A stretch of DNA of 20,746 nucleotides, from positions 1-20,746 of the IMG/VR virus record IMGVR_UViG_3300042691_036153, one strand, 5' to 3'. Each line of letters starts with the position of its first letter. The first letter of the stretch is position 1. The notes under the pieces were generated by a model. The model had not been told where the DNA came from, made no database searches, and saw only the letters and a program-made list of their open reading frames with translations. The DNA is from a virus. The position numbers and the translations under genes are program-made. Positions 3,317 through 14,311 of the stretch are shown here, in pieces.

Positions 3317-3633
3317 CTGTATACGTCGTTCAAGAATCAATGAAGTTCAATCTGCTGCCTGCAGCTGAGTATGGAGAACTTCAAACGTTGCTGCCGCCTG
3401 GTCAGGTGATGTTGGCTACTGCGCCAACGATCCGTGCCTTGCGTGACAAGCTACGAACCTTTTCAGACAGCGATTTTCTGCTGGCTATCGGTGATCCGAT
3501 TGCTATTGGACTGTCTGTCGCGATTGCTGCCGGTTTCAATGGTGGCAAGATCAGGATGCTTAAGTGGGATCGGCAAGAGCATCGGTATTACGCCATTGAG
3601 GCGGACTTAAATGGAGTCAGACAAAATGCTTGA
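3313..3633 (+). CDS. Conserved phage hypothetical protein in the replication operon
   Basis: 106 residues. I recognise no domain. The ATG at 3313 overlaps the preceding stop (ATGA) and has AGGGG upstream; in-frame ATGs further upstream would run into the nuclease gene. The sequence mixes short hydrophobic strands and helices (FLLAIGDPIAIGLSVAIAAG near the middle) and a tyrosine-containing segment DRQEHRYYAIEADL near the C-terminus, with no signal peptide. The hydrophobic stretch contains Asp and Pro and reads more like a buried alpha/beta core (a P-type loop around GDPIAIG) than a membrane helix. The position between the nuclease and SSB-like genes suggests a replication accessory factor, but nothing in the sequence shows what it does. 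Confidence 0.8.
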   Translation: MTVYVVQESMKFNLLPAAEYGELQTLLPPGQVMLATAPTIRALRDKLRTFSDSDFLLAIGDPIAIGLSVAIAAGFNGGKIRMLKWDRQEHRYYAIEADLNGVRQNA

Positions 3634-4174
3634 AGACATGTTGGCCGATAGTCAGAACCTTCCATCTGACCAAGGCTTGAGCAAAGTAAGTCGTTTGGCT
3701 GAAGAGCTGATTGACAAGGAAGAAGAGGTCAAAGAGGCAGAAGCTCGCCTCAAGATCTTAAAAGAGCACGCCCGTGACATTGCTGAAAGGCAGCTGCCTG
3801 ATGCGATGGCTGAGGTTGGCATGGCAAAGTTTGTACTTACTGATGGCAGTGAAGTGACCGTCAAACCGTACTACTCTGCCAAGATAGGTGAAGACAAGCG
3901 TGATGAGTGCTTTAACTGGCTGCAAGACCATGGCCACGAAGCGCTGATTAAAGACGAAGTGTCTGTAACCTTTAACAAGGGTGAGCATGAACGAGCCGAA
4001 GAATTCAAGAGCCAGCTAGAACAGCAAGGCATCGAATACAACGGCAAGATGGGTGTTCACCCTCAGACTCTGACAGCATTCGTCAGGGAACAAGTGGAAA
4101 GCGGTGCCGAGTTTCCTCTTGAACTTTTCAACGTGTATATCGGCCAAATTGCTAAAGTCAAAAGGAGCAAATGA
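3611..4174 (+). CDS. Coiled-coil phage protein of unknown function, replication module
   Basis: 187 residues. Residues about 20-60 form a charged heptad-like helix (EELIDKEEEVKEAEARLKIL), so an N-terminal coiled coil, probably mediating oligomerisation, is likely. It is followed by a beta-rich segment (FVLTDGSEVTVKPYYSAKI) and a C-terminal part with VHPQTLTAFVREQVESG and FPLELFNVYIG. I recall similar architectures as conserved genes beside single-strand-binding or recombination genes in other phages, but no established function. The start at 3611 overlaps the previous gene by 23 bases, with TGAGGCGG just upstream; ATG 3626 is an alternative. The stop overlaps the next start. A role with the SSB-like protein is inferred from position only. 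Confidence 0.85.
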   Translation: MESDKMLEDMLADSQNLPSDQGLSKVSRLAEELIDKEEEVKEAEARLKILKEHARDIAERQLPDAMAEVGMAKFVLTDGSEVTVKPYYSAKIGEDKRDECFNWLQDHGHEALIKDEVSVTFNKGEHERAEEFKSQLEQQGIEYNGKMGVHPQTLTAFVREQVESGAEFPLELFNVYIGQIAKVKRSK

Positions 4175-11862: not shown

Positions 11863-12209
11863 TGGACTACGCATCGATGACCACAGACGAGATTGGCGGA
11901 ATCTTTTCAGACTGGTATAAAGACACACATGGCTTTCGCCCACGCCACGTCAGCTTTGACGACCGCGAAGCCTTGATCAACGGCTGCATGGAGCTGGCTG
12001 CTTACCATGACAAGATGAATGAAACTTTTGAAGGCCGTGAAGAATTGCGTGAAAATGGATGGATCGTACATGAAGAAGATCCTGAGTTGCAGCGCCGTGC
12101 TTACTGGCTTGCTCAGGAACGCGACCGGATTAAAAAGGAGCAATATGCAGAACATTGGCACGACTCGCTCGCTGAAGCGCGTCACTACGCGGAAAAGGAA
12201 ACGGCGTAG
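11862..12209 (+). CDS. Conserved phage hypothetical protein with DWYKDTHGFRPR motif
   Basis: 115 residues; AGGAG lies seven bases before the ATG, which overlaps the previous TAA. The segment DWYKDTHGFRPRH (about 17-29) matches a motif I recognise from many unnamed phage proteins, usually near replication or accessory genes. The rest is helical and charged, ending in DSLAEARHYAEKE. No enzyme motif is visible. The basic-protein gene starts inside its 3' end (65-base overlap in another frame). Confidence 0.78.
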   Translation: MDYASMTTDEIGGIFSDWYKDTHGFRPRHVSFDDREALINGCMELAAYHDKMNETFEGREELRENGWIVHEEDPELQRRAYWLAQERDRIKKEQYAEHWHDSLAEARHYAEKETA

Positions 12210-12417
12210 CGATTTTGCAATAGCCTTTAACCTCCCTCGCAAGAGGAAGGTGAAGGCAGCATCATTTGGTTGTAAGAGGAAGAAGCCAAGGTATGACAAG
12301 AGCAAGCAGGCAAGCCGCAGGAGGAGTCACTCCAGACGCAGCGAACGGTTTGCCCGGATCACGACCTTGCGTATTCGAATTATGTTGATACACAGAAAGA
12401 GAAAGGAAGCAACATGA
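12145..12417 (+). CDS. Arginine/lysine-rich small protein
   Basis: 90 residues from ATG 12145, with AAAAAGGAG ending four bases upstream; the ORF is open further 5', but that part lies inside the previous gene. By my count it has 34 Lys/Arg and 4 Asp/Glu. Basic runs (TTRKRKRRS, PRKRKVK, CKRKKPR, SRRRSHSRR) suggest nucleic-acid binding. The middle phrase DFAIAFNLP looks like ordinary folded protein, arguing against a random frame. The stop forms an ATGA overlap with the next gene, and without this gene there would be a 200-base gap. It could equally be a poorly conserved or decaying gene. Confidence 0.55.
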   Translation: MQNIGTTRSLKRVTTRKRKRRSDFAIAFNLPRKRKVKAASFGCKRKKPRYDKSKQASRRRSHSRRSERFARITTLRIRIMLIHRKRKEAT

Positions 12418-12587
12418 AGAAGATCATTGAGTGGACCGTGACATTCGTGACCATGGTCATATTTGGAGCAGGCCTTGCAGTCATCACCATCGAGTGGATG
12501 GCAGGCTGCGGGGAGTCTTACGTCGACGCATACGGCAAGCGTCACCTGAATGAGTGTGTATTTATTAACTTTCCACCTAAGGAGTAA
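12414..12587 (+). CDS. Small membrane protein
   Basis: 57 residues. The ATG overlaps the previous stop (ATGA), with AAAGGAAG upstream. After MKKIIEW a hydrophobic helix (about residues 8-27) would span the inner membrane; the remaining ~30 residues contain two cysteines (32 and 48) that could form a disulfide outside the cytoplasm. Function unknown. It is followed two bases later by a second gene with the same MKKII start, so the pair may have arisen by duplication or act together at the envelope. Confidence 0.65.
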   Translation: MKKIIEWTVTFVTMVIFGAGLAVITIEWMAGCGESYVDAYGKRHLNECVFINFPPKE

Positions 12588-12589
12588 CC

Positions 12590-12751
12590 ATGAAGAAGAT
12601 CATCACTGGCCTGCTGGCCTCTTACCTAACCTTGTCTGCTGCCTCAGTCTATGCTGCATGCGTAGTGACCACGAACCCAGGACCTAACGGCCGCCTGATC
12701 GTGTGCACCACTTGCTGCGTAGGTAATAATTGCAGCACGAATTGTATTTAA
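12590..12751 (+). CDS. Exported cysteine-rich peptide
   Basis: 53 residues, preceded by AAGGAG (12579-12584). The first ~23 residues form a classical Sec signal peptide: MKK, a hydrophobic core (IITGLLASYLTLSAA), and an A-x-A-like site around VYAA. The predicted mature part is about 30 residues with six cysteines (24, 39, 42, 43, 48, 52), few charges and many Gly/Asn/Thr, compatible with three disulfides in the periplasm. It is not a lipoprotein, because Tyr rather than Leu sits at lipobox -3. No family is recognised. Being disulfide-rich and exported, it may act on the envelope or outside the cell; this is inference. Confidence 0.65.
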   Translation: MKKIITGLLASYLTLSAASVYAACVVTTNPGPNGRLIVCTTCCVGNNCSTNCI

Positions 12752-12771
12752 ACCGTCTGAAAGGAAAAATC

Positions 12772-12972
12772 ATGACACAAGAAGCACTGCACTTTGAAGA
12801 GAAGACCAATGGTACCGTAGAGGTGGCAAGCCTGCGCGACTACTACGCTGCTAGGATCCTCCAGGGGCTTGTAGAGAAGCACGGAGCAGCCTACATGTAT
12901 GAAACTATCAGAGAAGCTTTCCGCATGGCTGATGCAGCCCTGGTCATCCGCGAGGAGAGCGCAAATGGCTGA
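12772..12972 (+). CDS. Small helical hypothetical protein
   Basis: 66 residues from ATG 12772 (AAGGA six bases upstream); an in-frame ATG at 12730 lies within the exported-peptide gene and lacks a site. The protein has a short polar N-terminus and two helices (SLRDYYAARILQGLVEKHG and AYMYETIREAFRMADAAL). The spacing and aromatic pattern recall small phage proteins that carry a YYAAxxLQG segment, with unknown role. It overlaps the next gene by eight bases. Confidence 0.72.
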   Translation: MTQEALHFEEKTNGTVEVASLRDYYAARILQGLVEKHGAAYMYETIREAFRMADAALVIREESANG

Positions 12973-13225
12973 TGCAATTGACCTGAGTAATCTTGTCTTG
13001 CCTAACGCCGAGGACGAGTTTGCGGTCATCAACAAGAAGAGCCTGGAGAACGTGCTGCGGTTCGTGAACACGGTGCAGGTGAATGATCTGACCGTCAGGA
13101 TTGACCCTGAGAAGAACACGCTGTGGATCTGGAACCATGCAGGCCCTTCAGAAGGCGAAGGTGGTGAATTTAAGTTAAACGAGTTTGCCAAAGTCGTGGA
13201 AGAATTCTACAAGGAGAACTTCTAA
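12965..13225 (+). CDS. Small hypothetical protein
   Basis: 86 residues from ATG 12965, with GAGGAG seven bases upstream; the longer frame from 12899 has no such site. A strand-helix-strand core is suggested by FAVINKKSLENVLRFVNTV and LTVRIDPEKNTLWIWN, with a C-terminal acidic helix (FAKVVEEFYKENF). There are no catalytic motifs. The stop TAA abuts the next ATG with no spacer. Confidence 0.75.
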   Translation: MADAIDLSNLVLPNAEDEFAVINKKSLENVLRFVNTVQVNDLTVRIDPEKNTLWIWNHAGPSEGEGGEFKLNEFAKVVEEFYKENF

Positions 13226-13426
13226 ATGCCATGGTGCTGCGCATGCAAAGAAGAGTGCAATGTGATCGAGGTTGACTTCGGGATAGGCTCTTACGAGTAT
13301 TGGGGAGCAAAGGGTGTTGACATTCAGATTGAGGAGGTGAGCTCGTGCTGCGAGGAAGACTGGACAGACGAGCCGCCAGAAGAGGACGACGATGAAGACG
13401 AAGAAAAGGAGAAATTGGATGGCTGA
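13226..13426 (+). CDS. Small CxxC phage protein with acidic tail
   Basis: 66 residues starting directly after the preceding stop. Cysteines in MPWCCACKEEC and VSSCCEEDW, with the intervening FGIGSYEYWGAKGVD, match a widespread small phage protein in which a GxYEYxGxxGxD segment lies between two Cys pairs, probably a one-zinc knuckle. The tail (EEDDDEDEEKEK) is almost entirely acidic and could mimic nucleic acid or aid solubility. The function is unknown. Its last codons contain the AAAGGAG for the next small gene. Confidence 0.75.
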   Translation: MPWCCACKEECNVIEVDFGIGSYEYWGAKGVDIQIEEVSSCCEEDWTDEPPEEDDDEDEEKEKLDG

Positions 13427-13760: not shown

Positions 13761-13787
13761 GAGGGCCTCGATGGGCCCTCTTTTTTT
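13761..13787 (+). terminator. Strong rho-independent terminator
   Basis: A perfect 7-base-pair stem GAGGGCC/GGCCCTC with a six-base loop (13761-13780) is followed by seven T (13781-13787). It ends the small-gene operon and shields it from the convergent minus-strand regulator gene. Confidence 0.92.
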
Positions 13788-13796
13788 AACCTCGCA

Positions 13797-14246
13797 CTAC
13801 GCAGCTTCGTCAGGATCCTTACGCAGCTTGCATCCCAGGTCCATTGGATCTACCTTCAAGAAGTCAAAGACAGCCTTGCGGCGCTTCTCGGTTCTTTGAC
13901 CTCCACACTGGCTGCATTGATGACCACACACATTGCAGTAAGACGGTGGGCTTTCGAATGCCTTGACGACGCGGCGCTTGTGCTCCTGGCGGCAATGATC
14001 GAGATACTGTGGCTGCCAACCACGGATTGCGATGAGCTCGTCGATTGCAGCGATCACGTGATGACTGACCTTGCGCCCCTTAATGGCGTTAAAGAACGTG
14101 CCGCGTGAAAGATCTAGACCATCAGCTGATTCGCGGTCATACAAGCGACTGATGTTCGGGTGCCCTGAGCCATACTCACTGGCCCATAACAAGATCTTCA
14201 CGGTGTCTAAGTCGAGTGCCGTTGTTGCTTCTACAGGACGTGACAT
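13797..14246 (-). CDS. Putative zinc-binding transcriptional regulator
   Basis: 149 residues on the minus strand from ATG at 14246, with AAAGGAG six bases upstream (14253-14259); the longer frame from 14309 would start within the promoter. The N-terminal ~80 residues are helical and include LSRGTFFNAIKGRKVSHHV (about 46-64), compatible with a helix-turn-helix. Residues 104-114 form a C-x2-C-x3-C-x2-C knuckle, flanked by basic segments (HKRRVVK, RTEKRRK). The order helical domain plus zinc knuckle plus basic residues suggests a DNA- or RNA-polymerase-binding phage regulator, for instance of late genes or of Q-antiterminator type, but it matches none clearly. Its position opposite the late operon and divergent promoter supports regulation. 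Confidence 0.65.
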   Translation of the reverse strand: MSRPVEATTALDLDTVKILLWASEYGSGHPNISRLYDRESADGLDLSRGTFFNAIKGRKVSHHVIAAIDELIAIRGWQPQYLDHCRQEHKRRVVKAFESPPSYCNVCGHQCSQCGGQRTEKRRKAVFDFLKVDPMDLGCKLRKDPDEAA

Positions 14247-14277
14247 TTGATTCTCCTTTCTAAATGATGAGAGATCT

Positions 14278-14306
14278 ATTATACATTGCATTTTGTGTAA
14301 GTTGTA
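14278..14306 (-). promoter_or_regulatory. Minus-strand sigma70-like promoter for the regulator gene
   Basis: A perfect TATAAT on the minus strand (14278-14283) lies about 30 bases before the regulator's start codon, with its ribosome site in between. The -35 region at 14301-14306 (TACAAC on the minus strand, 17-base spacer) is poor, so an activator or another spacing may be used. A TTGTACAA palindrome (14302-14309) overlaps the -35 and may be an operator. Confidence 0.6.
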
Positions 14307-14311
14307 CAAAG

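Follow-up and report, generated by a model that had tools for sequence, protein, structure and literature searches.

A phage gene family encoding a small, probably exported six-cysteine peptide under strict purifying selection

Results

In this work we analysed an IMG/VR virus record of 20,746 bases, called here the window, and within it two adjacent small genes on the plus strand whose products both start with MKKII. The first gene (12414–12587) encodes a 57-aa protein with a single membrane span, MKKIIEWTVTFVTMVIFGAGLAVITIEWMAGCGESYVDAYGKRHLNECVFINFPPKE, and the second (12590–12751) a 53-aa precursor with six cysteines, MKKIITGLLASYLTLSAASVYAACVVTTNPGPNGRLIVCTTCCVGNNCSTNCI; coordinates and lengths agree with the description in an earlier note on this DNA. 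The genes are spaced by 2 bp, and directly upstream of each lies a purine-rich run resembling a ribosome-binding site, AAAGGAAG for the membrane gene and AAGGAG for the six-cysteine gene.

The precursor opens with a predicted Sec-type signal peptide, MKKIITGLLASYLTLSAASVYA (12590–12655, plus strand), called from sequence features and from conservation across relatives: a start with K/R, a hydrophobic core and an xYA motif, with predicted cleavage before AC (VYA|AC). The mature peptide that would be released, ACVVTTNPGPNGRLIVCTTCCVGNNCSTNCI (12656–12748, plus strand), contains the sheet predicted by AlphaFold2 and the invariant columns described below. Cysteines stand at precursor positions C24, C39, C42, C43, C48 and C52, and the stop codon follows I53. 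The export signal and the six cysteines within about 30 residues to which the earlier note had pointed are thus upheld as a prediction from sequence features and conservation.

A custom ORF rule (K/R near the start, a hydrophobic core and at least 6 Cys within the last 32 residues) was satisfied by exactly one ORF in the window and by none in 100 order-1 Markov simulations of it. In the window and four relatives (L002–L005), which we call the window clade, no residue of the 30-residue mature part varies, while the signal peptide diverges, with pN 0 and pS 0.39 for the mature part and pN 0.30 and pS 0.70 for the signal peptide. In the wider family pN/pS equals 0.11 for the mature part, compared with 0.43–0.48 for the signal peptide. 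Since the differences in the mature part are synonymous only across the five distinct relatives, window included, the ORF must be truly coding, and a chance ORF is ruled out by the simulations together with selection on the mature part. The mature peptide is under very strong purifying selection. The fall of pS between signal and mature part within this clade is a separate observation, which may reflect recombinational exchange of the mature region or an extra constraint at the nucleotide level.

The shared MKKII was considered as a mark of gene duplication and rejected: the two families are unrelated in sequence, and starts vary among the relatives of each, including MKRVL, MKRLL and MRKLF. 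MKK followed by hydrophobic residues is a common start for membrane or exported proteins, and the identical starts are therefore not evidence of common origin.

The membrane protein has one hydrophobic span, as the earlier note had read it, and two cysteines after the span; the positive-inside reading predicts an N-in/C-out topology. Its conserved outer segment, EWMAGCGESYxDxxGxxHxxEC, retains both cysteines, and 36 matching loci in viral contigs encode a membrane span followed by a GCGE-Y-D-G-C-like segment, with no family found for it in Pfam or PHROG. A cultured phage also has a similar protein, gp02 of Roseobacter phage CRP-810 (WOZ07695.1; 36.7% identity, E 3e-3), with a membrane span and then TGCGETF...G....EC, but its N-terminus is longer and basic and, unlike in the window, the next gene does not encode a six-cysteine peptide. 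In about nine of ten loci the membrane gene is followed by something other than the six-cysteine gene, and most six-cysteine genes are found without the membrane gene. The idea that the two genes form one obligatory system is therefore not supported, as each family mostly occurs without the other and they are paired only in the window clade. There the pair is present in all five distinct members, despite gain and loss of up to about 1 kb of flanking genes. It is thus a stable two-gene unit within this clade, with neither family depending on the other, and in this clade the membrane protein is a likely candidate partner of the peptide.

Around the pair, the window encodes a DNA polymerase (assigned by reading the sequence), helicases, GroES, a terminase and an 847-aa portal protein; the terminase is about 55% identical to those of Caulobacter phages GB2A, RLK and KcrB. 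The six-cysteine gene is flanked by small hypothetical genes and lies upstream of the terminase. The 200-base gap at 12210–12413, upstream of the pair, contains the end of a putative ORF for a very basic, K/R-rich product (12019–12417); the stop codon of that ORF and the start codon of the membrane gene overlap in ATGA. Compared with window positions 12190–13400, L002–L005 show gains or losses of about 0.2–1 kb of small genes to the left or right of the pair, which marks the region upstream of the terminase as a hotspot of gene turnover. A terminator-like hairpin at 13761–13780 (plus strand; 8-pair stem with 6 GC, TTTTTTT tail) is possibly the end of the transcript carrying the pair; it is a consensus match only, with four such hairpins found against 3.3 expected from shuffles. 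Just past it, a 170-aa ORF on the minus strand (13797–14309) faces the operon; it gave no match in Pfam or PHROG, and its product is possibly a regulator.

A first scan recovered five relatives at full length and a further one in part. The window's own phage recurs as L001 (99.99% over 7.6 kb). Search with a profile, and then with the DNA pattern for C-x-T-CC-x4-C-x-T-x-C, extended the family to at least 106 contigs with at least 95 distinct proteins, and to at least 128 distinct sequences in viral contigs when both turn lengths were combined. The cysteine order is C-x(13-15)-C-x-T-CC-x(4,5)-C-x-T-x-C, and the C-terminus lies at most three residues past the last cysteine. A signal peptide precedes the cysteine-rich part in all 128 distinct relatives among the matches listed. 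As a control, the second cysteine spacing was altered in pattern scans of viral contigs: a signal-like start combined with the C-terminal motif was found, among the matches listed, in 0 of 80 loci for x3, 76 of 108 for x4 and 36 of 92 for x5. The empty x3 control indicates that the family turn is of four or five residues and that the background is near nil. The window peptide has all three family features, namely the signal peptide, the cysteine order near the stop and an even cysteine number.

Among the matches listed, the mature part contains six cysteines in 105 of 128 members, eight in 23 and an odd number in none, with five of the six cysteines being required by the search motif itself. 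Loss of the cysteines in relatives, which the earlier note had named as evidence against its reading, was looked for, and six or eight were present in 128 of the 128 listed. The mature columns C2, C17, T19, C20, C21, C26, T28 and C30 are invariant. In the eight-cysteine form one extra cysteine is at mature position 8 and the other at 13, or at 14 where the turn is one residue longer (22/22 aligned). All eight-cysteine members have the start MKYL, MRYL or MKYI, so this form may stem from one evolutionary event.

Three loci differ in their gene arrangement. L115 (3976–4334, plus strand) contains a family member and then, at 4143, a divergent relative with CTICCFNKHCNTTCRWD, which suggests that this tandem pair arose by local duplication. 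In L134 (minus strand) and L301 (2956, plus strand) the six-cysteine gene is directly followed by a second gene for an apparently exported cysteine peptide, with a signal peptide and ACPAYAPYNCKPGMNGKMICGCGVR (four Cys); some phages thus seem to encode exported disulfide peptides of two kinds one after the other.

The fold was predicted with AlphaFold2 from the window mature peptide and 90 family sequences, with one row from a GenBank phage collection left out. The model of the window peptide (mean pLDDT 92.4, pTM 0.46) has strands at 2–8, 14–22 and 25–30, and that of an eight-cysteine member (pLDDT 92.2, pTM 0.43) at 2–9, 12–21 and 24–29; low pTM is usual for chains of 30 residues. The mature peptide is accordingly predicted to form a three-stranded antiparallel sheet. 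Disulfide pairing was derived from the strand positions, with the strand ends taken as the hairpin register (position sums 22 and 47 for the six-cysteine model, 21 and 45 for the eight-cysteine model). The window peptide would then have the bonds C2-C20, C17-C30 and C21-C26 in mature numbering, and the eight-cysteine member C2-C19, C16-C29 and C20-C25 plus the extra C8-C13; every cysteine, the extra pair included, faces a partner in both predicted registers. For the phage lipoprotein Rtp45 an AF3 model differs greatly from its structure (PMC12685063), so AlphaFold may mislead for such proteins, and the six-cysteine fold stays a prediction.

For a fold this small, searches of the PDB brought up no clear match: the best Foldseek hit (E 0.34) was a hairpin piece of lipocalin-type PGD synthase, the best VIA-align Z was 3.6, and search of the PDB by sequence gave an unrelated weak match (E 1.5) or none. 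The C-C-CC-C-C order fits a knottin. However, 14 residues make a long first spacing, and by the predicted register cysteines 1-3, 2-6 and 4-5 would pair, whereas an inhibitor cystine knot pairs 1-4, 2-5 and 3-6. The knottin and defensin labels were not adopted, on grounds of spacing and pairing. The best viral structural match to both models (BFVD/UniProt) was the 49-aa A0A6J5M8Q5 from an uncultured Caudovirales phage, with TMq 0.87 and 0.92, 48% and 53% identity over 30–31 residues, and Foldseek E-values of 0.0098 and 0.0049, which are in the range to be expected at this chain length. By its sequence it is almost certainly a member of the family; no study of it was found, and it is known only by its database name, 'Lipoprotein'. 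The third Foldseek match, A0A5B9N6S7 of Stenotrophomonas phage Ponderosa, was rejected, as the 66-aa CDS of matching length has one cysteine and no signal peptide.

Across about 85,000 species of bacteria and archaea, a pattern search for members with a turn of four residues, with M at two codon positions, yielded 111 stretches, two of them true members. One of them, L273, is a phage contig in an alphaproteobacterial MAG, with ERF, SSB and phage lysozyme genes. The other, at 3527–3685 (plus strand) of L268, sits on a 5.3 kb contig from a Burkholderiales MAG and is flanked by genes for a VIT/VWA protein and for a WYL-domain regulator; no phage genes were recognised in the 5.3 kb and the contig looks chromosomal, so a host-adopted copy is possible, as is a mis-binned contig. 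Profile searches of 399 genomes from the order of the L268 genome and 142 from that of the L273 genome gave nothing further convincing, and two weak alphaproteobacterial matches (L535, L536) were rejected as members. The family is thus nearly phage-only.

Among annotated phages the gene was found in two records of a single Manatee Spring phage (MW202462.1 and MW202544.1), as an unannotated 47-aa ORF with a signal peptide. In tblastn against INPHARED two members returned nothing, probably owing to the low-complexity filter, and another found MW202462 with E 2e-8. In MW202462.1 (L007 reverse complement, 755–898) a CDS has been called on the opposite strand over the six-cysteine ORF.

The neighbours of six-cysteine genes, assigned by clustering and Pfam, include DUF1376, ERF, YqaJ, SSB, MazG, P22_Cro/YdaS-like and HTH_3 genes. 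Terminase genes are near in some loci, and structural or lysis genes are seldom immediate neighbours. A lysis role was rejected, because the immediate neighbours are not lysis genes; one is occasionally nearby, like the phage lysozyme about 1.5 kb off in L273.

Pfam, NCBIfam and PHROGs held no convincing model for the window peptide or for diverse members, the best near-full-length weak match being phrog_38795 (E 0.016) for one divergent type only. The remark of the earlier note that such a gene is uncommon in phages is in line with this lack of a model in all three collections.

Discussion

From the signal peptide, the cysteine parity and the models we infer that the precursor is exported by Sec and trimmed to about 30 residues, and that in the oxidising periplasm three disulfides would lock it into a tiny three-stranded sheet. 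The company of replication, recombination and Cro/YdaS-type regulator genes suggests that the peptide would probably be made early in infection. More speculatively, its most likely target is a host envelope protein, which it would bind and alter to the advantage of the infecting phage; in the window clade the membrane protein, with its outward pair of cysteines, would be a likely candidate partner. The role that we tentatively place first for this exported periplasmic peptide with an envelope target is superinfection exclusion. It would act as T5 Llp, Cor and Rtp45 do, except that the peptide would be soluble rather than a lipoprotein. Exclusion and envelope modification, both named in the earlier note, are the best candidates among the roles proposed there.

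Exclusion is favoured because, of all tasks, it has the best precedent among exported phage proteins that are small and disulfide-bonded. Llp of T5 is made early and acts in the envelope (PMC9586334); Rtp45 of phage Rtp targets LptDE, has a Cys30-Cys38 disulfide and alters the outer loops of the receptor (PMC12685063); and Lpp of mEpimmI phages is likewise an exclusion protein (PMC11893012). All three set a precedent for blocking outer-membrane receptors from the periplasm (PMC9586334, PMC12685063, PMC11893012). The six-cysteine peptide resembles Llp of T5 and Cor of phi80 and T1 in being small and, by prediction, exported and disulfide-bonded, and Rtp45, compared by description, is also a small phage protein on the periplasmic side with a disulfide. 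These proteins are, however, lipoproteins. Llp and Cor are lipidated and membrane-anchored, with one intramolecular disulfide described (PMC9586334), as against three or four predicted in the six-cysteine family. The llp gene, like those of other known exclusion lipoproteins in many cases, adjoins a receptor-binding gene (PMC9586334), whereas six-cysteine genes belong to replication and recombination modules, and the window gene does not lie beside a receptor-binding or tail-tip gene.

Could the peptide nevertheless carry a lipid on its first cysteine and belong in the outer membrane, as a lipoprotein like Llp and Cor? The UniProt name of A0A6J5M8Q5 points that way, and in most members the first cysteine stands 0–1 residue past the predicted cleavage site. 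Yet a strict lipobox occurs in only 4 of 128 members among the matches listed, and is missing in the other 124. Residue -3 to the first mature cysteine is Y or W in 102 of 128 listed, which suits ordinary signal peptidase, and the SVYAAC of the window, with Y at -3, has no lipobox either. Lipidation of the first cysteine would leave an odd number over, and in L110 and L134 the likely cleavage (AIA|QSTQVC and ALA|QNTNVC) falls five residues before it. We consider lipidation very improbable and the peptide most likely non-lipidated; lacking a lipid anchor and linkage to receptor binding, it cannot be filed with the Llp/Cor-type lipoproteins. Still slighter is the chance of a periplasmic metal-binding peptide whose cysteines hold metal rather than form disulfides. 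The short cysteine-rich chain, the CxTCC and the frequent His at mature position 5 (53/90 aligned) would suit it, but the cysteine number is even without exception among the matches listed, the extra pair is exactly opposed in the predicted hairpin, and export would lead to an oxidising compartment.

An envelope effector serving exclusion agrees with the strong selection on the mature part, the even cysteine number, the confident models pairing every cysteine, the spacing control (0/80 against 76/108 and 36/92 listed), the early-module neighbours, the nearly phage-only distribution and the Llp, Rtp45 and mEpimmI Lpp precedents. Against it stand the membrane anchor of the known exclusion lipoproteins and their frequent place by a receptor-binding gene, with six-cysteine genes located elsewhere, and also the identity of the mature peptide across the window clade, as a receptor blocker might vary with its receptor. 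The same invariance is easier to reconcile with a host target that is conserved than with a receptor that varies. It would be expected, as would the export and the early-module location, of a factor that serves host takeover or anti-defence in the envelope early in infection and has no bearing on other phages. Such a factor would inhibit a periplasmic or inner-membrane host protein, for instance a periplasmic nuclease, an enzyme of the cell wall, a protein of the envelope-stress response or a defence linked to the envelope. Pfam, PHROGs and NCBIfam gave no match to a defence or takeover model. We rate this reading only slightly below exclusion, both being less likely than not. A released effector, set free after export or at lysis and acting outside the cell on neighbouring bacteria like a bacteriocin or defensin, or signalling to other infected cells, seems improbable. 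A small, secreted, disulfide-locked three-stranded sheet, if the model is right, would be defensin-like in size, but net charge is 0 to +2 in 127 of 128 mature peptides among the matches listed, which speaks against a classic membrane-active antimicrobial peptide; no immunity gene, receptor or regulator is constantly adjacent, no route of exit through the outer membrane was seen, and the cysteine order of defensins differs from C-C-CC-C-C.

Conclusions

Small, early exported phage effectors are already known; the six-cysteine family and its predicted three-disulfide sheet are new, and in the open-access literature no description of the family was found. It could represent, with a confidence that falls somewhat short of even, a large class, so far without a name, of soluble micro-proteins locked by disulfides and exported early, which would control the host envelope by an undescribed mechanism and have an ultra-small three-stranded fold of their own. 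A gene present in more than 100 phage contigs is left unnamed by standard annotation and can be overlooked, as in the single GenBank record with the gene that was inspected, where an ORF on the opposite strand was called instead, and yet the 30-residue product of this gene is very strictly kept. Synthesis and folding pose little difficulty for such a peptide, which makes its target directly findable. If the peptide is a receptor blocker, exclusion would not need a lipid anchor; if another envelope protein is hit, this would mark a weak spot found by many phages.
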